Of a DNA stretch of 36,729 nt, positions 1 through 36,729 are shown piece after piece. Position 1 is the first letter of the stretch. Each line of letters opens with the position of its first letter. This DNA is from a virus, in the IMG/VR virus record IMGVR_UViG_3300032315_001069, positions 1-36,729 of that record; one strand, given 5' to 3'. Under the pieces are notes generated by a model. The model saw only the letters and a list, made by a program, of their open reading frames with translations, had not been told where the DNA came from and searched no databases. Position numbers and translations under genes: made by a program.

Positions 1-14
1 AGTGCCCGAACCAG
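1..14. other. Left cohesive end (cos) copy, inferred
   Basis: The first 14 bases are identical to 36707-36720 at the other end. There the copy is followed directly by an Illumina adapter start. A 5' overhang filled in during library end repair would leave exactly one copy at each physical end. The position, between an HNH endonuclease gene and the terminase genes, is where cos lies in lambda-type and HNH-dependent cos phages. The overhang length and polarity are inferred, not shown. Confidence 0.6.
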
Positions 15-31
15 ACCGATAAATTTCTGCG

Positions 32-4958: not shown

Positions 4959-6448
4959 AATTAGCCGACCGCTGGAAACTTGTGACCAAAGCCTTCAGCC
5001 CGAAGGCGCAAAGCTACGATGCCGCGCGGCCTTCGATTCAGCGTCGATTCCCTTACAACGCCACAGCGACCGACAGTCACATCGACGTATCCGGCGCCGA
5101 CCGCGAGCGGCTGATGAAACTCTCGCGCTGGGTGTATAACAATATGCCCTTTGTCCGTGGGCTGATTTGCGAGAAGGCCCGCTACGCCACAGGCACAGGC
5201 ATCCGCCCGCAGGCGCGCTCTGGCAACGAAGCATGGGACAATGCCGCCGAAACTTTCTTTGAGCAATGGTCGCGCGTGGCCGACATCCAAGGCCGATACA
5301 CATGGCGCGAGATGCAGCGCATCGCCTCGGTCGCTATCGACCGCGACGGCGAAGTGTTCTTCCGCGCCACCGCGCAATCGACTGGGTATCCCGCGTTGCA
5401 ACTCATCCTTGCCCACCGCATCGGCGATGCCCGCTCCTCGATCTACGAGCCGAGCAACCCGACCGCCCGCGAAGGCGCGCAGAACATCATCGACGGCGTG
5501 GTGGTCAATCCGCAGCTACGCCCGATCTTCTACCGCCATCTGGTCGGCGACGGCGTTGACCCGGCGCAGCGCTTTGAGGACATCCCCGCGCAGCAACTTA
5601 TCCACGTTGGCGAGGCCAGCCAAGGCGACGAATTGCGCTACGTCACGCCGCTCGCCCCGTCCATTAACCACCTCCGCGATGTGTCGGACGCCATCAGCTT
5701 TGAGAAGATGGCGCTCAAAATTTCCTCCTACATCGCCCTCGCCATCAAGTCCTCCAACCCGCAAGGCGCGGATTTCTTTGGCGAGGCGACCCACTCCGTC
5801 AACAGCCAAGACAACAGCGAAGTCACCGTCGAATCCCTCGGCAACGCAGGCGGCGCCATCCCGCGCCTCGGCATGGGCGAAGACCTGATCTCTTGGACAT
5901 CGAACCGCCCCACGCAAAACTTCCGCGAGTTCTGCGACCTTCTCCTCCGCGAAGTCTGCCTCAACATCGGCGTGCCGTGGGAATTTGCCGCACGTCCTGC
6001 CGATGCGGGTGGTGCGGCCCTGCGCGCCGTGCTCGTCCGCGCCCAACGCACCTTTGAGCAGCGCCAAGCCCTGCTCATCGACCGCCTCTGTTCCCGCGTC
6101 TGGGCCCACGTCATCACGCTCGGAATGCAGCGCGGCCTCCTTCCGCAGAACGAAAATTGGTGGCGCGTCGAATGGCAGCGCCCGGCGGCAGCGTCTGTGG
6201 ACTACGGACGGGAAGCGCAAGCCAACCTGAACGATGTCCGCGCGGGCCTCCGCACCTACTCCGAGGACTACAGCGAGCGCGGCCTTGAGTGGAAAGACCA
6301 GCTTCGCCAGCGCGCCGTCGAGGCGAAGTATCTGGCCGAATTGTCCGCAGAGTTTGGCATCGGTGCCGACAGCATTGCCACTTTCAACCCCAACCCTGCA
6401 CCGCCGACAAACAACGGCAGCGCATTGACACCGCAGCAAGCGCAATGA
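4955..6448 (+). CDS. Portal protein, lambda gpB family
   Basis: A 497-residue protein forming the dodecameric ring at the capsid vertex through which DNA passes. Features typical of lambda-type portals are FVRGLICEKARYATGTGIRP at about 67-86, an alpha/beta middle with IDGVVVNPQLRPIFYRHL, and the late motif GVPWEFAARPADAGGAALRA before the long C-terminal helices. Length fits the family (lambda gpB 533). ATG 4955 overlaps the previous stop. The stop overlaps the protease start, so head genes are translationally coupled. Confidence 0.93.
   Translation: MKLADRWKLVTKAFSPKAQSYDAARPSIQRRFPYNATATDSHIDVSGADRERLMKLSRWVYNNMPFVRGLICEKARYATGTGIRPQARSGNEAWDNAAETFFEQWSRVADIQGRYTWREMQRIASVAIDRDGEVFFRATAQSTGYPALQLILAHRIGDARSSIYEPSNPTAREGAQNIIDGVVVNPQLRPIFYRHLVGDGVDPAQRFEDIPAQQLIHVGEASQGDELRYVTPLAPSINHLRDVSDAISFEKMALKISSYIALAIKSSNPQGADFFGEATHSVNSQDNSEVTVESLGNAGGAIPRLGMGEDLISWTSNRPTQNFREFCDLLLREVCLNIGVPWEFAARPADAGGAALRAVLVRAQRTFEQRQALLIDRLCSRVWAHVITLGMQRGLLPQNENWWRVEWQRPAAASVDYGREAQANLNDVRAGLRTYSEDYSERGLEWKDQLRQRAVEAKYLAELSAEFGIGADSIATFNPNPAPPTNNGSALTPQQAQ
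6425..6430 (+). promoter_or_regulatory. TTGACA start-associated element, 20 nt before protease ATG
   Basis: TTGACA lies within the last codons of the portal gene and begins 20 nt before ATG 6445. It supports that start over in-frame codons further upstream. Confidence 0.45.
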
Positions 6449-7557
6449 ACGCGCCCGCTTGGTATGCAATTTCAGCGCCCCGCAACAGCGAAGCCGAAGA
6501 TGGCCGCGTCGAGGTTCACATTTACGACGAGATCGGCGGCTACGGCGTCACGGCGAAAGACTTCATCTCGGAGCTTAAAAAATACAAAGGCCAGCACATC
6601 GACCTCCGCATCAACTCCGTTGGAGGAAGCGTCATCGAGGGAGATGCAATTTTTAACGCGCTCCGACGCCATCGCGGTGGCTTAACCGTTCACGTTGATG
6701 GACTTGCGGCAAGCATGGCGTCCATCATCGCTATGGCTGGCGACAAAATTGTCATGGCCGACAACGGCTTTTTGATGATCCACAACCCTTGGTCGATGAG
6801 CGTTGGCGATGCCGACGATCTCCGCAAAGAAGCCGACACGCTCGACAAAATCAAAGAGTCGATGGTTCGCACCTACGCGCGCCGGGCAAACATTTCCCGC
6901 GATGCCGTCAGTCAGATGATGGACGAGGAAAAGTGGATGGATGCCCGCGAAGCTCTCGACCTCGGATTCATTGATGAAATTGACGAGGACGCAATGGCAG
7001 CCGCCGCCTCTATCACCCGCAGCGAAGCGCAAGCCCGCTTTGACAAGCTCAAAAACTCTATGTCCCGCAAATCCGCGAAAAACATCAAAGCTGAAGAAGT
7101 CGCCCCCGAAGTCGAGGAAGCGGTTGTCAGCGTGACCGACGCGCCCGTTGAGGTCGAATCGGTTGACACTTCCTCGGAAGATACAATGAACGCCGAACTT
7201 CAAGCGAAGGTTGACGCCCTCCAGGCCGACCTCGCCGCCAAAGTCGAAGCCGACACCGTCCGCGCGCAAGCCGACGAAGTGACGGCCAAGGAACTTGAAA
7301 CCCTCAAAGCCGAAGTCGAGCGCCTGACCGCCGAGTCGGCCAGCAAGGACGAGGAGATCACCGCGCTGCTCGCGGCCTCCAAAAGTGCTGGCGAGCAAGC
7401 TGCAGCAATCGTCGCTTCTGTTGGTCTTGAGCCCGTGGCTGTCGTCTCTGCCGAGCCGGAACTGACGCCCGCTCAAATCTTTGAATCACTCAGCGGCTCG
7501 GAAGCCGTCGAGTATTACCGCGCCAACAAGCGCGCCATCATCGCTTCCATTTACTAA
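6445..7557 (+). CDS. Prohead protease (ClpP/S49-like) with C-terminal scaffold domain
   Basis: A 370-residue protein. Residues 1-190 have the ClpP-like fold: INSVGGSVIEGDAIFNAL at 56-73, the nucleophile in GLAASMAS (S90) and the His in MIHNPW (H113). After a linker, residues from about 248 form a Glu/Ala/Lys-rich coiled coil ending in FESLSGSEAVEYYRANK, the expected scaffold. This matches lambda gpC, whose C-terminal part is also made separately as scaffold Nu3. ATG 6445 is chosen because it overlaps the portal stop and has TTGACA 20 nt upstream. Confidence 0.9.
   Translation: MNAPAWYAISAPRNSEAEDGRVEVHIYDEIGGYGVTAKDFISELKKYKGQHIDLRINSVGGSVIEGDAIFNALRRHRGGLTVHVDGLAASMASIIAMAGDKIVMADNGFLMIHNPWSMSVGDADDLRKEADTLDKIKESMVRTYARRANISRDAVSQMMDEEKWMDAREALDLGFIDEIDEDAMAAAASITRSEAQARFDKLKNSMSRKSAKNIKAEEVAPEVEEAVVSVTDAPVEVESVDTSSEDTMNAELQAKVDALQADLAAKVEADTVRAQADEVTAKELETLKAEVERLTAESASKDEEITALLAASKSAGEQAAAIVASVGLEPVAVVSAEPELTPAQIFESLSGSEAVEYYRANKRAIIASIY
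7163..7168 (+). promoter_or_regulatory. TTGACA element 23 nt before an internal in-frame ATG
   Basis: TTGACA inside the protease gene, 23 nt before in-frame ATG 7186. Its spacing matches the element at true gene starts and points to internal initiation of the scaffold. Confidence 0.5.
7186..7557 (+). CDS. Scaffolding protein, internal in-frame start (Nu3-like)
   Basis: Predicted 123-residue scaffold sharing the 3' end and frame of the protease gene, starting at codon 248 (MNAELQAKVDALQADLAAK). The sequence is almost wholly a charged coiled coil, with a C-terminal FESLSGSEAVEYYRANKRAI that would contact the capsid protein. Lambda makes Nu3 the same way within gene C. The evidence for initiation here is the TTGACA element 23 nt upstream plus the sharp change from protease fold to coiled coil. 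Internal initiation itself is inferred. Confidence 0.6.
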   Translation: MNAELQAKVDALQADLAAKVEADTVRAQADEVTAKELETLKAEVERLTAESASKDEEITALLAASKSAGEQAAAIVASVGLEPVAVVSAEPELTPAQIFESLSGSEAVEYYRANKRAIIASIY

Positions 7558-23511: not shown

Positions 23512-24146
23512 ACCCGCTCAAATGGTTCAGTCACTTATTCGCGGCCTTGCGAAATGGCCCACCGTCGATCTCGCCGAACTCCTCCTTGCCATCAAAACCA
23601 TCCTCGATAAGCGAGCCAAAGAAGCCGAGCGCGCCACCAAAAAGCGCCCCAAGCACAAAGGCGAAAAGCCCTAAGAGCTACTCGGAGAAACTGCTCAACA
23701 CGCCCAACGTGTCGCAGGGGCGGCGGATTGCTCCAAAGGCCATCGTCCTGCATCACACGTCGGGCAGCTACGCGGGAAGCGTGGCGTGGTGCATGAACCC
23801 GGCGAGCCGCGTGAGCTATCACGCTATCGTGGCAAAGGACGGACGGCGCTCCACCTTGGCCGATCCCAACGAGAAAACTTGGCACGCGGGGGTTTCGTCA
23901 TGGCGTGGCAAGCGTGACTTGAACTCGTGGAGCATTGGCGCGGCTTTCGAGGGCGACACCTACAAGCGGCCACTTGGGGAGGACGAGATGGCGAGCATGG
24001 CCGAATATCTTGCGCCGTTAATGAGGCGGTATCGGCTGACGGTTGATGACGTTACCGACCACCGCACCGTTTCGCCGGGGCGCAAAGACGATTTGAACCC
24101 AACGGAATTTGCGCGATTCAAAGCATACCTTGGCGGGGTGCCGTAA
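23508..24146 (+). CDS. N-acetylmuramoyl-L-alanine amidase (endolysin)
   Basis: Peptidoglycan-cleaving enzyme of the amidase_2 (T7 lysozyme) type: KAIVLHHTSG holds the first zinc His, YHAIVAKDGRR the core strand, TWHAGVSSWRG the second part, and DHRTVSPGRKDDLNP the late His and Asp. From GTG 23508 it has 212 residues, including a Ser/Pro/Lys-rich leader of about 60 residues. That leader overlaps another frame with better coding character (23522-23674), so the true start may be further in, for example GTG 23709 just before the domain. No signal peptide, so a holin is needed. Confidence 0.85.
   Translation: MNPLKWFSHLFAALRNGPPSISPNSSLPSKPSSISEPKKPSAPPKSAPSTKAKSPKSYSEKLLNTPNVSQGRRIAPKAIVLHHTSGSYAGSVAWCMNPASRVSYHAIVAKDGRRSTLADPNEKTWHAGVSSWRGKRDLNSWSIGAAFEGDTYKRPLGEDEMASMAEYLAPLMRRYRLTVDDVTDHRTVSPGRKDDLNPTEFARFKAYLGGVP
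23522..23674 (+). CDS. 50-residue ORF overlapping the amidase leader
   Basis: A 50-residue frame (MVQSLIRGLAKWPTVDLAEL, then LLAIKTILDKRAKEAERA and a basic tail) lying wholly inside the 5' part of the amidase frame. Its codons prefer C/G at the third position, like neighbouring genes, whereas the amidase frame here uses many CCA, TCA and TCG codons and encodes low-complexity Ser/Pro. The protein has an amphipathic helix plus a charged end. It may be a lysis accessory or i-spanin-like piece, but lacks a clear membrane segment. Confidence 0.55.
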   Translation: MVQSLIRGLAKWPTVDLAELLLAIKTILDKRAKEAERATKKRPKHKGEKP

Positions 24147-24206
24147 AAAGCACCGTATGGTGTATCGAGTCGCGGCCCGATGCGGGTTCAATGCCCGGCC
24201 CCGCCC
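24132..24206 (+). other. tRNA-like fold overlapping the amidase stop
   Basis: GGCGGGG (24132-24138) pairs perfectly with CCCCGCC (24199-24205), 74 bases end to end, with TG at the positions of U8 and R9. Just before the 3' arm, CGGG-TTCAATG-CCCG matches a T-arm. Inside, CACC-GTAT-GGTG and ATCG...CGAT make two hairpins, but no seven-base anticodon loop is seen. It could be a decayed tRNA, an attachment-site remnant or a tRNA mimic. The 5' arm is also the last codons of the amidase gene. Confidence 0.35.
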
Positions 24207-24232
24207 ACTTTGTGTAAACTGAGCGGGGTTTT
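24199..24232 (+). terminator. Probable terminator at the end of the late operon
   Basis: CCCCGC (24199-24204), 18-base loop, GCGGGG (24223-24228), then TTTT. It lies 52 nt after the amidase stop where + and - transcription converge. Its 5' arm is shared with the tRNA-like fold, so the two structures exclude each other. Confidence 0.6.
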
Positions 24233-24323: not shown

Positions 24324-24470
24324 TCATCGCCAAGTCAGCCAAAGGAAACCGAGGTTCGCCAGGGCATACCCGCCGAACGCCACGGCCATCGGCCCGTTGC
24401 CGTCGCGGAGGAACCCTGCCGCCGTGAGGACGTAGAGCAGGGTTGAAGCGAGCAAGGGCCAGAAGGTCAC
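24324..24470 (-). CDS. 48-residue membrane protein, last gene of minus operon
   Basis: Starts at GTG 24470, overlapping the stop of the upstream metallopeptidase gene (GTGA). Two hydrophobic segments, about 3-19 (FWPLLASTLLYVLTAAGF) and 28-46 (MAVAFGGYALANLGFLWL), are joined by a short charged loop (LRDGNGP). Probably an inner-membrane hairpin protein. It may anchor or respond to the metallopeptidase made just before it. Function unknown. Confidence 0.55.
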   Translation of the reverse strand: MTFWPLLASTLLYVLTAAGFLRDGNGPMAVAFGGYALANLGFLWLTWR

Positions 24471-24811
24471 GACGCCTTGTGCTTTCCGATGGAAATCTTG
24501 CCGTCGCAAAACTGGTTTGCCACCCAAGCCGTGACCACCGAAACGATCCGCTCGTGATCGCGCACATGGGTTTCGTCCACGCAAGGCATGGTCACATGGG
24601 CAATTTCATGCGCGACAATGCCGAGCAAATTGCCCGCCACGGCATTCGGGTGGAGATAGACCGTCCTGCGTTTGTAATGCGTAATGCCCTCGCAAAGCTC
24701 TTTGGCTGGCGGGCGAGCCACAACCACCTTCCACCATTCGCCATCAACCTTGAAGCGCAGCGTGGGGCGGGGCTTCTTGCGCCTGCGTGGGGCTTTGGCG
24801 GGCTTTTTCAT
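24467..24811 (-). CDS. HExxH metallopeptidase-like protein
   Basis: A 114-residue protein. The N-terminus is very basic (KKPAKAPRRRKKPRP), suggesting nucleic-acid contact. The core has HEIAH (H68, E69, H72), the zinc site of many metallopeptidases, preceded by YLHPNAVAGNLLGIVA and followed by DETHVRDHERIV, which could supply the third ligand. The layout recalls SprT-like or ImmA-like proteases but is not clearly either. ATG 24811 overlaps the stop of the HTH gene upstream, so both are probably made together. Confidence 0.7.
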   Translation of the reverse strand: MKKPAKAPRRRKKPRPTLRFKVDGEWWKVVVARPPAKELCEGITHYKRRTVYLHPNAVAGNLLGIVAHEIAHVTMPCVDETHVRDHERIVSVVTAWVANQFCDGKISIGKHKAS

Positions 24812-25092
24812 TTGAGCTTGTAGTGCCGCAGCGCCAAAACCCTCTGGCCGCACTGAACGCGAAACATCGCCGTCTCGCATCGGCCTTGTTCGGCGGCTTT
24901 GCGGATGAGCTTCGCCATGTGGCTTTCGCTTTTTCCGAGTAGGGCGGCGATTTCGCTCATGCGGAGCCAACCCGGCGGCACCTCGTCGGTGGCGGCTTGC
25001 GTGGATAGGGCCGCGCACCACTTGGCGAGGTCGGGATCGAAGGAGGGGGGCAAATTGCCGCCCCCCTTTTTGGTTGAGAGCCGCGACTTCAT
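24808..25092 (-). CDS. HTH DNA-binding protein
   Basis: A 94-residue protein with a helix-turn-helix at about 42-66: PPGWLRMSEIAALLGKSESH then MAKLIRKA. A possible wing follows (CETAMFRVQCGQRVLALRHY). The N-terminal linker contains KKGGGNLPPS, whose DNA also forms a terminator-like hairpin on the + strand. It lies between phosphoesterase and metallopeptidase genes with ATGA overlaps on both sides. Likely a regulator; pairing with a protease recalls repressor-protease switches, but that is inference. Confidence 0.6.
   Translation of the reverse strand: MKSRLSTKKGGGNLPPSFDPDLAKWCAALSTQAATDEVPPGWLRMSEIAALLGKSESHMAKLIRKAAEQGRCETAMFRVQCGQRVLALRHYKLK
25045..25071 (+). terminator. Plus-strand terminator embedded in the minus-strand HTH gene
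   Basis: GGGGGGC (25045-25051), loop AAATTGCC, GCCCCCC (25060-25066), TTTTT (25067-25071). A seven-pair, all-GC stem plus T tract. It is oriented to stop rightward transcripts that escape the late-operon terminator and would run antisense through the minus operon. Confidence 0.75.
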
Positions 25093-25829
25093 AGCGGGAG
25101 CCTGTAATGGGGGGAAAGCGTGACGAGGTTAACCGTGCAGGCCGTGTCGCAGTATTCGCCGTAAGCAAAGCCATGCCGCCATGCCAAGGTCTGCCGCCGT
25201 CCTGCGGCATACTCCATATCGAGGCGGGCCAAGCACCCGATGTTGTAGCCAATGGCGTCGGCATGGGTGCGGGCGGGCTCCATCGCCACGCGGTGCGTGT
25301 GGCCGAACACACAATGCGCGCCGATAGTTTCCGCCGTGTCGCGGGCCGCGCTGACGTTAAACAAAGCGCCGTGCAAAAAGGCCGTGCCGCCCAGATAGCG
25401 CACCGAGTCGCGGGCCATGCCGCGATAGGGGATGATCTCGGTTTTGTATTTGGCGAGATTGTCGTGGATCTTTGCCATGACCGCGCCGGCGGCATAGGCC
25501 ACGACCTGATTGGCGCTATGGGTCAGGGCAACGGCACGGGCCTCGTGGTTGCCGTGGAAATACATGGTTGGCCGCATCTCGTGGAGGAACGACAACCCGG
25601 CAAGCAAATCGTCCATGAGAGACTCGGCGCGGTCGGGGTCATCGGGATCACGCCGAGCGCCAGCGCGGAGACAGGCGAGGTCAATGGCGTCGCCAAGGTG
25701 GATGCGTTGGTGCGGGTTGTAGCGATCGAGGAAGGTCAGGAACGCTTCGCGGGCCTTCGGGTCGATATCGGAACCGTGGGAGCAAGTCGCCGCCGCATAC
25801 TTCTTCCACTTTCGTGTGATGTTCGCCAC
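25089..25829 (-). CDS. Metallophosphoesterase, first gene of minus operon
   Basis: A 246-residue calcineurin-like phosphoesterase with the motifs in order: CSHGSDID (H18, possibly D21/D23) in place of the usual DxH, HLGDAID (D47), FHGNHE (N94, H95), a later FLHG (H153) and VFGHTH (H177, H179). The N-terminal motif is atypical, so metal binding may differ. Substrate unknown; family members cut phosphodiesters or phosphomonoesters in nucleotides, nucleic acids or proteins. Starts at GTG 25829 with TTGACA 22 nt upstream, and its stop overlaps the HTH start. Confidence 0.85.
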   Translation of the reverse strand: MANITRKWKKYAAATCSHGSDIDPKAREAFLTFLDRYNPHQRIHLGDAIDLACLRAGARRDPDDPDRAESLMDDLLAGLSFLHEMRPTMYFHGNHEARAVALTHSANQVVAYAAGAVMAKIHDNLAKYKTEIIPYRGMARDSVRYLGGTAFLHGALFNVSAARDTAETIGAHCVFGHTHRVAMEPARTHADAIGYNIGCLARLDMEYAAGRRQTLAWRHGFAYGEYCDTACTVNLVTLSPHYRLPL

Positions 25830-25845: not shown

Positions 25846-25851
25846 TGTCAA
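25846..25851 (-). promoter_or_regulatory. TTGACA element (minus strand), 22 nt before GTG 25829
   Basis: Read on the minus strand, TTGACACCC begins 22 nt before the GTG start of the phosphoesterase gene. It is the only clear case of the element on that strand and falls at the same spacing. Confidence 0.45.
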
Positions 25852-25876: not shown

Positions 25877-25906
25877 GGGGTCAAAAATGGGACAGGATTT
25901 GACCCC
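25877..25906. repeat. REP-like hairpin GGGGTCAAA...TTTGACCCC
   Basis: GGGGTCAAA (25877-25885) and TTTGACCCC (25898-25906) are perfect inverted arms around twelve bases. Arms of this type are common in REP or IS200/IS605-associated palindromes; here it sits alone in the divergent control region. An operator is the alternative. Confidence 0.6.
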
Positions 25907-26048
25907 GAATTTACGCCATGTTGGCAATCGTTGGCAGATCCAGAGCAAATCCTTGATACCCAAATGCATACACTCATTTGCAAGTCGAGCGTTAGACAAT
26001 TTCCTGCAAAAACTTGACTTATGGCGCGCGAGGCGTCTTGATTGCCGT

Positions 26049-26402
26049 ATGCCACTTTGCCCGCATTGCGGCCAACAAATGCCCCACAAAGAGGTTCCAG
26101 AGTGGGCCAAGGATCACGAAAAACTAGGGGAGGTGAGGGGGCGAATCGCCCGGATGCTTCGGGAGCCCGACCCGTTGGCCGGGCTTCCGGCCCAAGCAAA
26201 AAGGGCGCTGGCCTCTGTAGGGGCGGACGCGCCAGAGAAGATCGCCCGCGCTCTGCAATATCGGCTGCTCACCCGGAAAACCAAAGGCGTGGGCGACCGC
26301 ACTTACCGTCGCATTGAAAAATGGCTGGAGGGCAGGGGGCTGGTGCGAGTTTCCGAGGACGAAAATTTTTTTTGGGCCGGGTCAAAAAAACATTTGACGT
26401 AA
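26049..26402 (+). CDS. Zinc-ribbon protein, first early gene
   Basis: A 117-residue protein from ATG 26049 starting MPLCPHCGQQMPHKEVPEWA; C4 and C7 form a CxxC. The rest is helical and basic: REPDPLAGLPAQAKRALASV, then YRLLTRKTKGVGDRTYRRIE and WLEGRGLVRV, which looks like a winged-helix end. It may be a DNA-binding regulator. The frame is open upstream to 25887, but that stretch lies in the palindrome-rich control region and has poor coding character, so the later ATG is preferred. Confidence 0.6.
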   Translation: MPLCPHCGQQMPHKEVPEWAKDHEKLGEVRGRIARMLREPDPLAGLPAQAKRALASVGADAPEKIARALQYRLLTRKTKGVGDRTYRRIEKWLEGRGLVRVSEDENFFWAGSKKHLT

Positions 26403-33086: not shown

Positions 33087-33972
33087 CCCCGGCTTTGTCA
33101 GCCACTGGAAGACGCAAATGCTGGTGGCGCGCTGCGGCGCAGAGGCGGCGCTTGGCTTGCTGCGGCTGTGGGGCAATGCCCAGATCAGCCGCGAGTGGAG
33201 CGGGCTGCGGCTATCGCCGCGCAAGCTGGCCTCAATGATGGGCTACAACGGCGATGCTGACGGATTGTGGCAAGCCATGACCGACAAGGACGCGGCATGG
33301 TTGGACGAGCAAGAGGACGGATCGTGGGACATTCACGGTTTTGAGGAACACCAGAAACAGGTCATCAAACTGTGGGCCAACGGCAAGAAAGGCGGAAGAC
33401 CGCCAAAAGAAGCACCCCCCACACCCCCCGAAGAAAACAAAGAAGATACTCTTGCGCGTCCTCTTACCCCATTTGGAAACCAAGTGGTTTCATTTCAAAA
33501 CCAAATGGTTTTTCAGACTCCGAGTTTGGAAGACGTGAAGCAGGCGGCTTTTATGATGGGAGCCAACCCAGAGCGAGCCGAAATATGGTTTCACGAGATG
33601 GAGGGGCGCGGCCATACCACCGATGGCTATTGGATTGGCAAGGACGGCCATGCGGTTCGTAACTGGCGCTCGGCATTAAAAGCGTGGGACGGCAAATGGG
33701 TTGCCAACGAGACAGCCAAGCACAACGGGAAGAACGGCCACAACGGCCACAACGGCCACGCCAAACCCGAATCGGTCTGGTCGCTACAGCAACGCATCGA
33801 AGCCGCGCAGAAGGAAGTGGATCGCATCTGCGCGAACCCAGCGAACAAGGAAGCCGTCCCTGACTCGTTCGACCGCAGGCTGCGGGCCGAGCCAATGGCG
33901 AAGGTGAAGGCGCTGAAGGCGAGCATTTCGGAAATGCGGCAGCGGTTGGCTGGGGTGGAGGTGGCGGCGTGA
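33076..33972 (+). CDS. Replication initiator/helicase-loader-like protein
   Basis: A 298-residue protein. The N-terminal 100 residues look like a winged-helix replication domain (GLLRLWGNAQISREWSGLRL, LASMMGYNGDADGLWQAM, WDIHGFEEHQKQV); a basic KKGGRPPKE and a disordered linker follow. The middle (EDVKQAAFMMGANPERAEIW, then DGHAVRNWRSALKAW) resembles the end of many phage replication proteins. A NGK-NGH-NGH-NGH linker and a coiled coil end the protein. Two palindromic iteron-like repeats lie inside the gene, as in lambda gene O. Confidence 0.65.
   Translation: MKIDPGFVSHWKTQMLVARCGAEAALGLLRLWGNAQISREWSGLRLSPRKLASMMGYNGDADGLWQAMTDKDAAWLDEQEDGSWDIHGFEEHQKQVIKLWANGKKGGRPPKEAPPTPPEENKEDTLARPLTPFGNQVVSFQNQMVFQTPSLEDVKQAAFMMGANPERAEIWFHEMEGRGHTTDGYWIGKDGHAVRNWRSALKAWDGKWVANETAKHNGKNGHNGHNGHAKPESVWSLQQRIEAAQKEVDRICANPANKEAVPDSFDRRLRAEPMAKVKALKASISEMRQRLAGVEVAA
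33476..33517. repeat. Two palindromic 21-bp iteron-like repeats (candidate origin)
   Basis: GAAACCAAGTGGTTTC (33476-33491) and AAAACCAAATGGTTTT (33497-33512) are perfect 16-bp palindromes whose centres are 21 bp apart, two helical turns. They lie in an A/T-rich stretch of the replication gene and encode the repeated NQVVSF/NQMVF residues. Candidate initiator-binding sites. Confidence 0.55.
33724..33759. repeat. Four tandem 9-bp repeats (NGH linker)
   Basis: AACGGCCAC occurs three times in a row (33733-33759) after the related AACGGGAAG. In frame it encodes NGK then NGH three times. It may be only a flexible linker, or a second repeat element of the origin. Confidence 0.7.
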
Positions 33973-34172
33973 GTGAATCCCTGCGCGCTTATATCCAAAG
34001 CCGTGGCCTCGACGCCCTCTTGACGATGAACTTCCTGCAAGACAACGGCGTGATCTCCGACAATGCCGTGAGCGTGGCCGAGGTCGGAAACGGCGGCGAG
34101 TGTATTGGCTGGCTGGAAAAGCGCGACCAGAGGGCTTTGCGGGCGCGGGATGAGGCGAGGAGGGCGGCGTGA
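33969..34172 (+). CDS. Small hypothetical protein
   Basis: A 67-residue protein from GTG 33969 (GTGA overlap): SLRAYIQSRGLDALLTMNFL, then GGECIGWLEKRDQRALRARD. Helical with a basic end. No recognised family; the overlap with replication and next genes suggests a co-expressed partner. Confidence 0.5.
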   Translation: MSESLRAYIQSRGLDALLTMNFLQDNGVISDNAVSVAEVGNGGECIGWLEKRDQRALRARDEARRAA

Positions 34173-34354
34173 GCGAATCCAAGCACTACTTGCCCAACGG
34201 GGCCAAAGCGATTTACCCGACGCTGGCAAAAGCCATAACGGCCCGATGCAAGGTGGCACGGCAACGCGGTGATCGGTGGCGATCTCAGCTACGCATCTAC
34301 CGTGTGGCGAAGGGCTGGTGCTTAACCAAAATGACGAAGGGACAACTACTGTGA
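34169..34354 (+). CDS. Small basic hypothetical protein
   Basis: A 61-residue, strongly basic protein from GTG 34169 (MSESKHYLPNGAKAIYPTLA, RCKVARQRGDRWRSQLRIYR). Overlaps neighbours by four bases. Likely nucleic-acid binding by charge alone; no family seen. Confidence 0.5.
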   Translation: MSESKHYLPNGAKAIYPTLAKAITARCKVARQRGDRWRSQLRIYRVAKGWCLTKMTKGQLL

Positions 34355-34800
34355 ATATCTCCAAACCCGAATGGAACGATTTGCTGACGCATTTGCCGGA
34401 TAAAGAGCGGCAAGTTGTTTTGGAGCGGTTTTTCCACGGCAAAACCGTTGAAACGGTTGGCAAAATTCTTGGTGTGAGTGCAGAGCGGGCGCGACAAATA
34501 CTCAAAAAAGCCCTGCACAGACTAAAAAAGCTGATTGAGGACAAGGCAGAGCGCCCAAGAAAACGCATCAGCTTGGCCGAAGGCTGGTTTGTGGACGTTA
34601 GCAAGGCTGGCGGGACGGCAAAATATGCGGCTTTTGCAAAGCGCATGAAGCGCCAGATTGGGGCGCAAAAACTTATCCGCGTGACACCCGACCCGACTTG
34701 GCCGGGGGCAATTACTTACTGGGGGCCAGTGAAAATCGTTATTGGGCGCAAAACAATCAAAGGCATCGCCCAAATAGAAGCCAAAGGAACGCACCTATGA
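34351..34800 (+). CDS. Sigma-factor region 4-like protein
   Basis: A 149-residue protein from GTG 34351. Residues 14-61 closely follow sigma-70 region 4: HLPDKERQVVLERFFHGKTV, then ETVGKILGVSAERARQILKK and ALHRLKKL. In sigma-70, region 4 binds the -35 hexamer TTGACA. There is no region 2, so it cannot melt a promoter by itself. The C-terminal half (TKxAAFAKRMKRQIGAQKLI-like, then TPDPTWPGAITYWG) is a separate small domain. A candidate late-gene activator or RNA polymerase appropriator. Confidence 0.65.
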   Translation: MNISKPEWNDLLTHLPDKERQVVLERFFHGKTVETVGKILGVSAERARQILKKALHRLKKLIEDKAERPRKRISLAEGWFVDVSKAGGTAKYAAFAKRMKRQIGAQKLIRVTPDPTWPGAITYWGPVKIVIGRKTIKGIAQIEAKGTHL

Positions 34801-36661: not shown

Positions 36662-36706
36662 GTGCCTGCCCCCCAAGGCTTCGGGGTCCCGCGCTACTGC
36701 GTCGCA

Positions 36707-36720
36707 AGTGCCCGAACCAG
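36707..36720. other. Right cohesive end (cos) copy, inferred
   Basis: Identical to bases 1-14. It lies 46 nt after the HNH stop; the gap 36662-36706 has a weak CCCC/GGGG hairpin and no gene. Confidence 0.6.
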
Positions 36721-36729
36721 AGATCGGAA
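36721..36729. other. Residual Illumina adapter (AGATCGGAA)
   Basis: These nine bases equal the start of the common Illumina adapter, and follow directly after the terminal repeat. They are not phage sequence. The first A would be the A-tail added before ligation. Confidence 0.85.

Follow-up and report, generated by a model that had tools for sequence, protein, structure and literature searches.

A four-gene operon with a motif I cysteine metallophosphoesterase recurs as a module with exchangeable parts in environmental phages

The nearest described counterparts of the locus reported here are the metallophosphoesterases (MPEs) of cluster A mycobacteriophages (A10ZJ24 gp48 and the Bxb1 gp47/L5 gp54 family). 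A10ZJ24 gp48 is a DNA-degrading counter-defence protein, and both DNA degradation and toxicity are lost in its D10G variant (PMC12287305). In the MyraDee and Ponzi loci the MPE gene is followed by a gene for a DNA-binding protein, an order that is also the core of the present operon. A further resemblance is to the immR–immA pair, in which an overlapping HExxH gene follows directly on an HTH gene. Single proteins of the operon recall SbcD/Mre11 and Ap4A hydrolase on the one hand, and the SprT-like, minigluzincin and ImmA-IrrE proteins on the other.

The window, meaning the whole 36.7-kb stretch of DNA that was analysed, is a tailed-phage record with family matches to phage structural and DNA-processing genes, including small and large terminase, head protease, capsid, tape measure, tail, amidase, exonuclease VIII, resolvase and endonuclease VII. 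Every gene with a family match outside the cassette lies on the plus strand, and the one competing long minus-strand open reading frame that was examined (33627-34646) has no match to Pfam, PHROGs or PADLOC families. Nothing significant emerged when the window was scanned for Rfam families and tRNAs. The cassette is a minus-strand operon of four genes (24324-25829) with a 4-nt overlap at each junction (ATGA, ATGA and GTGA). It is flanked by an amidase gene (ending at 24146) on one side and by a divergent plus-strand gene (starting at 25887) on the other. The original prediction, made from the letters of the window, had described the four reading frames and these overlaps, and all were found where it had placed them. 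The features are:

25089..25829, minus strand: MPE, calcineurin-like metallophosphoesterase, 246 aa, GTG start (phrog_221, E=1.8e-14; AlphaFold2 and Foldseek)
24808..25092, minus strand: wHTH, winged-helix DNA-binding protein, 94 aa (alignment, type clustering, domain-only swaps in DNA)
24467..24811, minus strand: HExxH protein, 114 aa, basic N-terminus (alignment, AlphaFold2 model)
24324..24470, minus strand: TM, two-helix membrane hairpin, 48 aa, GTG start (alignment)
25846..25851, minus strand: TTGACA signal, 16 nt upstream of the MPE start codon
25810..25957, minus strand: homologous to the attP arm/operon leader of relatives that carry the integrase (L010, 74.5% identity over 153 alignment columns; L011, 77%)
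25887..26402, plus strand: divergent 171-aa gene in the place of the integrase, outside the cassette, shared with seven relatives

A family search with the 171-aa gene (25887..26402) gave no convincing match, and neither sigma-70 promoters nor terminators around the cassette rose above chance.

By sequence the MPE falls into phrog_221 and matches the same profile as the cluster A mycobacteriophage MPEs, to which it is ~23-25% identical. In a four-sequence search the related phage MPEs of loci L188/L189 match the window-MPE HMM at about 1e-13. The AlphaFold2 model (pLDDT 84.5) is an alpha-beta sandwich with 40 PDB matches at E<=0.001, to MPE-type folds. The best solved matches are Ap4A hydrolase, SbcD and Mre11 (E about 3e-6 to 1e-4), which share the predicted fold at ~10-16% identity. 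The operon differs from SbcD/Mre11 in having no SbcC/Rad50 partner and in carrying a cysteine for the motif I aspartate. The remaining motifs are intact (GD47, GN94H95E96, H153 and GH177TH179), and motif I reads C16-x-H18, compared with D-x-Q (SDTQ) in the cluster A mycobacteriophages. It had been proposed that the string CSHGSDID replaces the DxH motif; the aspartate is indeed lost, but the histidine is kept, in C16-x-H18-G. The residues that the same proposal had singled out are all in place, N94/H95 within G93-N94-H95-E96 of the MPE and E69 within H68-E69-x-x-H72 of the HExxH protein.

When aligned with the MyraDee and Ponzi MPEs, Cys16 falls on the position of the motif I aspartate. It is present in 91 of 91 homologues, as is each of D47, N94, H95, H153, H177 and H179. 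A degenerate MPE can be ruled out, as the remaining ligands are all invariant and dN/dS is low. The canonical aspartate is absent from the window-type MPE and present both in a second MPE type (MPE2, motif SDLHCGS) and in L234, an MPE homologue within a genome of the host order (motif SDVHG). Since the cysteine also occurs in the L216-L230 group and L234 has SDVHG, the cysteine looks like a derived state that has been retained by selection. Cys16 could be a metal ligand. The requirement for the motif I aspartate in A10ZJ24 gp48 means that the cysteine form may act on another substrate or on none.

With the MPE as query, IMG/VR yielded 36 relatives, and a profile search gave 527 related stretches, of which 80 were kept; MPE relatives are encoded by 527 of 599 matching viral stretches. 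Gene families were traced by iterated HMMs across all fetched loci. Among the 116 distinct viral loci with the wHTH, the series wHTH-HExxH-TM is present in 93, nearly always behind an MPE. Across all 116, the MPE is of the window type in 97 and MPE2 in 18. MPE2 substitutes for the window-type MPE with the gene order unchanged. The HExxH gene is found in 94 loci and is accompanied by TM in all but one (L183), which ends shortly after HExxH. A GNAT acetyltransferase (PF00583) occurs in 18 of the 116 loci and never together with HExxH (0/116). In L021 and L211 the same slot holds other HExxH proteins (HESCH and HEFLH, respectively), again with the same TM family downstream. In L184-L187 the HExxH-TM pair stands without MPE-wHTH, and the reverse holds for L089 and the L034 group, which carry MPE-wHTH and lack HExxH-TM. 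As each pair occurs without the other, the operon consists of two separable pairs, an MPE-wHTH core and an exchangeable second slot that holds HExxH and TM, another HExxH family with TM, or a GNAT.

Each cassette gene is under purifying selection, with dN/dS against close relatives of 0.07-0.08 for MPE, ~0.2 for wHTH, 0.13-0.2 for HExxH and 0.11-0.18 for TM. Together with the recurrence of the order in most of the 116 loci, this argues against a chance association of the four genes. The original prediction of a four-gene unit is thus borne out, as order and overlaps are conserved across most of these loci, and the gene set that it proposed to look for elsewhere turns up in at least two unrelated phage lineages. 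It had also regarded separation of the genes in relatives as evidence against its reading; such separation does exist, at the level of the pairs (the L034 group and L089; L184-L187), so that this objection applies in part. Its remark that no named system has these four parts agrees with our searches, in which no named counterpart was found, and its view of the genes as an accessory cassette appears sensible. We do not assign the operon to any named system. A tblastn search with the MPE for a closely related phage among 50,697 sequenced phage records gave no match at 1e-5, and the HExxH protein has a single weak, unannotated match among sequenced phages. The operon is frequent in environmental phages yet nearly absent from sequenced-phage databases. 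Its carriers are phages of soil and freshwater bacteria, and it moves among unrelated phages as one unit.

In alignments of the wHTH, the N-terminus and a HYRLK-type C-terminus are conserved, whereas the DNA-binding domain is freely exchanged; clustering at 80% identity gives 34 types among 109 loci. The alleles of the cassette reassort almost freely. Pairwise identities of neighbouring genes show almost no correlation (MPE-wHTH r=0.04, MPE-HExxH 0.04, HExxH-TM 0.06 and wHTH-HExxH 0.26), which argues against tightly matched protein partners. Swaps of the DNA-binding domain alone also occur. L145 and L155 have MPE and HExxH proteins that are ~100% identical where they could be matched and wHTH proteins that are 43% identical, and their DNA identity falls from ~95% to 40-60% solely across the winged-helix core, recovering within HExxH. 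This pattern looks like an exchange of DNA-binding specificity under diversifying selection. A k-mer comparison for operators specific to wHTH types revealed no compact operator; words peculiar to a type belong for the most part to lineage-tracking DNA or form a podophage-wide repeat. Co-inheritance of wHTH and amidase (r=0.41, p=0.0005) was set aside as functional evidence because it probably reflects lineage linkage in the late region.

The HExxH protein is predicted with confidence by AlphaFold2 (pLDDT 91). Across 35 sequences H68, E69, H72 and E80 are invariant, giving the gluzincin-like spacing H68-E69-x2-H72-x7-E80, and no downstream histidine is invariant, which tends to speak against SprT; E80 would be expected to bind the metal. 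Fold matches to solved structures are non-significant (selecase, abylysin and PprI/IrrE, the first two being minigluzincins; E 0.15-0.6). With the SprT-like Pfam model the window protein scores 15.3 bits, below the curated cut-off of 25.6, and the best member reaches E=3e-5. Profile similarity to phrog_1233 is weak (1.8e-6), and Peptidase_M78 is matched by 3 of the 35 members (best E=0.014) and not by the window protein. The protein thus shares the HExxH motif and small size of the SprT-like, minigluzincin and ImmA-IrrE groups, but profile similarity to them is weak, and its extra invariant residue is Glu80, eight residues after H72, rather than a histidine. The hairpin has the consensus MTFWPLL..Y.....GF...GN....AF.GY..AN.GF. 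Its near-strict pairing with HExxH, even where the HExxH family has changed, suggests that protease and membrane hairpin work together. The MyraDee and Ponzi loci have no HExxH, TM or GNAT partners, and the DNA-binding neighbour in the mycobacteriophage loci is of another family than the wHTH (sigma-like in MyraDee).

The operon is set in at least two unrelated kinds of phage genome. In siphophages the operon is convergent with the lysis genes, and a tyrosine integrase usually lies immediately upstream, on the same strand or divergent. In podophages with a capsid about 40-45% identical to that of HTVC010P-type pelagiphages, it lies between the scaffold and capsid genes; HTVC010P itself has only a 58-aa ORF in that place, with no such cassette beside the capsid gene. 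In addition, MPE-wHTH(-x) is found just upstream of the scaffold and capsid genes in the L211/L212 and L226 groups, and between endolysin-like and integrase-like genes in L217; the genes in these three contexts, and the scaffold and portal genes of the podophages, were named by eye and position. Tyrosine integrases (PF00589) are present in 40 of 49 relative records and serine recombinases (PF00239) in none of the 49. The window has no tyrosine integrase, and it and several relatives retain the operon nonetheless, while in podophages the integrase is far from the operon. About 150 bp upstream of the window MPE are homologous to the attP arm/leader of L010/L011 (75-77%), and the integrase place is taken by the 171-aa gene, as in seven other loci. 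Retention of the operon without an integrase argues against a service to integration or excision.

Beside the integrase of many relatives is a stretch of 57 nt that corresponds to a tRNA-Ser 3' half. Exact matches to this stretch among 84,980 species genomes are confined to nine contigs, all of Verrucomicrobiota, several being named Chthoniobacter, Chthoniobacterales or Spartobacteria. Of 213 Chthoniobacterales genomes, two contain strong MPE matches, one of them beside wHTH, amidase and integrase genes. An MPE profile scan of the GTDB contig collection had found none, a negative that reflects a limit of the method given the two later matches. The tRNA-Ser attP matches and the MPE genes in genomes of this order indicate that the siphophage group is probably temperate on Chthoniobacterales (Verrucomicrobiota); for the window, this host assignment is extended from its relatives. 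To our knowledge few phages have been described from Verrucomicrobiota, the phylum that at least some carriers infect.

The integrase region shows some further variation. About 1.2 kb upstream of MPE, the integrase block has opposite orientations in L003/L022 and L010/L011, in genomes that are otherwise similar (83-84% DNA identity over 1.23 kb of the block). The window contains a tRNA-like 3' half at about 24130-24215, between amidase and cassette, which is also present in some relatives, and intact tRNA-Trp and tRNA-Met genes are found at the amidase-cassette gap in L023 (6544-6617) and L064 (8409-8480).

A start signal links the operon with late genes. On the plus strand of the window, 12 of 13 TTGACA words are followed after 13-17 nt by the start codon of an ORF (4616, 6425, 7040, 7163, 8525, 11269, 12143, 13530, 16138, 17134, 23188 and 34801; on the minus strand, 25851). 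This is ~six-fold more than the 2.1 +- 1.2 expected, with a maximum of 7 in 300 shuffles. Most sites stand at structural and holin genes, and the genes concerned comprise those for head protease, glycosyltransferase, tape measure, tail and holin-like proteins, among others; one site lies in the early part of the genome, and two fall inside the protease gene. The word precedes 58 of 59 siphophage MPE starts, and start-proximal TTGACA is enriched in pooled siphophage loci (42 seen, 16 expected) and not in podophages (2 seen, 8.8 expected). A distance of 13-17 nt from the start codon is too short for an ordinary -35 box. The window encodes a phage sigma-70 region 4 protein (34276-34800, PF04545 7e-17), which is suggested simply as a candidate reader of the signal. 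A host-wide signal was rejected, since ~65 kb of contigs from Verrucomicrobiota show no enrichment, with 3 such sites against 4.3 expected. In podophages the scaffold stop and the MPE start are at most about 20-30 nt apart, so that the operon should be co-transcribed with the head genes. The sharing of TTGACA with structural and holin genes and, in podophages, the location between scaffold and capsid suggest, with moderate confidence, that the operon is expressed late.

Two observations concern neighbouring signals. The head protease gene (6289-7557) has two in-frame internal starts linked to TTGACA, at 7060 and 7186, from which a nested scaffold protein may possibly be made from the 3' end of the gene. 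In podophage loci such as L071 and L081 the word GGTTTAGTCAAAA recurs ahead of the scaffold region and again in the gap from cassette to capsid gene; it is present in all loci of the commonest podophage wHTH type and is a candidate podophage promoter.

These results bear unequally on the possible roles of the operon. The original prediction had likened HTH plus protease to a lysogeny switch, and in an ImmR/ImmA-type switch or maintenance system the wHTH would repress, the HExxH protein would cleave it on induction, and MPE and TM would be accessory. Such a system would accord with the tyrosine integrase that adjoins the operon in most siphophage relatives, with the order HTH then overlapping HExxH common to both systems, with the gluzincin-like spacing given by E80, and with diversified DNA-binding domains that resemble immunity types. 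The idea is nevertheless weakened by the carriers without an integrase, the window among them, by the podophage position between scaffold and capsid genes and by the weak co-inheritance of HTH and HExxH alleles (r=0.26). Replacement of HExxH by GNAT in 18 loci and the marginal Peptidase_M78 matches (3/35) point the same way, as does the late-type TTGACA signal, and we regard a lysogeny switch as quite unlikely. Bxb1 uses a serine integrase, and an excision or replication module modelled on its gp47, a recombination directionality factor and replication protein, with the wHTH as the excisionase, is very unlikely. Membership of phrog_221, the annotation of some mycobacteriophage homologues as recombination directionality factors, the adjacent integrases and frequent attP sites of siphophage relatives, and a weak match of the wHTH to an excisionase family are in its favour. 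The recombinases of the relatives are, however, tyrosine enzymes, which rules out a serine-integrase partner in the 49 records, and the MPE can be replaced by the other MPE type. The related idea that the MPE is the directionality factor of the neighbouring integrase was dropped in view of the integrase-free carriers and the podophage arrangement, where the integrase is distant.

A head or packaging helper, that is, a late DNA-processing and proteolytic module in capsid assembly or DNA packaging, has more to commend it, though it too is unlikely. The late signal agrees with it, as does the place of the operon in the HTVC010P-like phages, with scaffold on one side and capsid on the other, and just upstream of these genes in two other groups; the podophage position, which would also fit head assembly or packaging, is a point against the reading preferred below. 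The siphophage operon, however, is on the opposite strand and apart from the head cluster; its content is not constant, the second pair being replaced by a GNAT or missing in some loci; no cassette adjoins the capsid gene of HTVC010P; and a membrane protein is hard to accommodate. Prophage expression of the operon for superinfection exclusion or defence would be in keeping with a portable, modular and diversifying operon that includes a small membrane protein, in temperate relatives with copies in Chthoniobacterales genomes. Against this, PADLOC models gave no match at E<=0.01 for the four cassette proteins, MPE2 or GNAT, no sigma-70 promoter exceeds chance, and a start signal common to structural and holin genes does not point to prophage expression; this role is highly doubtful.

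Tentatively, and with less than even confidence, we prefer to regard the operon as a portable accessory ('moron-like') unit that temperate phages, at least one lineage of them infecting Chthoniobacterales, express late. In such an accessory module the MPE might cleave DNA or a nucleotide, and the wHTH might be its DNA-binding or regulatory partner, with its specificity under diversifying selection. The small gluzincin-like protease and the membrane hairpin might act on a host protein, and the net effect would fall on host cells or co-infecting phages instead of serving virion building or the choice of lysogeny. Besides the podophage position, the near-free reassortment of alleles, the inactivity of the gp48 D10G variant and the negative operator comparison count against this reading. 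A more specific version, which is decidedly doubtful, is a late inter-phage or host conflict module. Here a Cys-ligand MPE nuclease would be directed by an exchangeable winged-helix chooser of DNA targets, the DNA specificities being traded like allelic cassettes around a constant effector, and a swappable membrane-protease or acetyltransferase arm would act on protein. If true, phages would have a competition system of a new kind, one based on a metal-ligand variant new to the MPE family; more generally, a correct exclusion or competition reading would imply a new type of phage conflict system. As a portable phage unit with exchangeable parts, an invariant-cysteine MPE and precise swapping of DNA-binding domains, the operon lends itself to testing.

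A last observation concerns the ends of the window (1-15 and 36700-36729). Its first 14-15 bases (AGTGCCCGAACCAG) recur at the end, with AGATCGGAA after them, apparently as read-through into an Illumina adapter. The end repeat and the adapter-like AGATCGGAA together suggest a physical genome end, perhaps a cos site.
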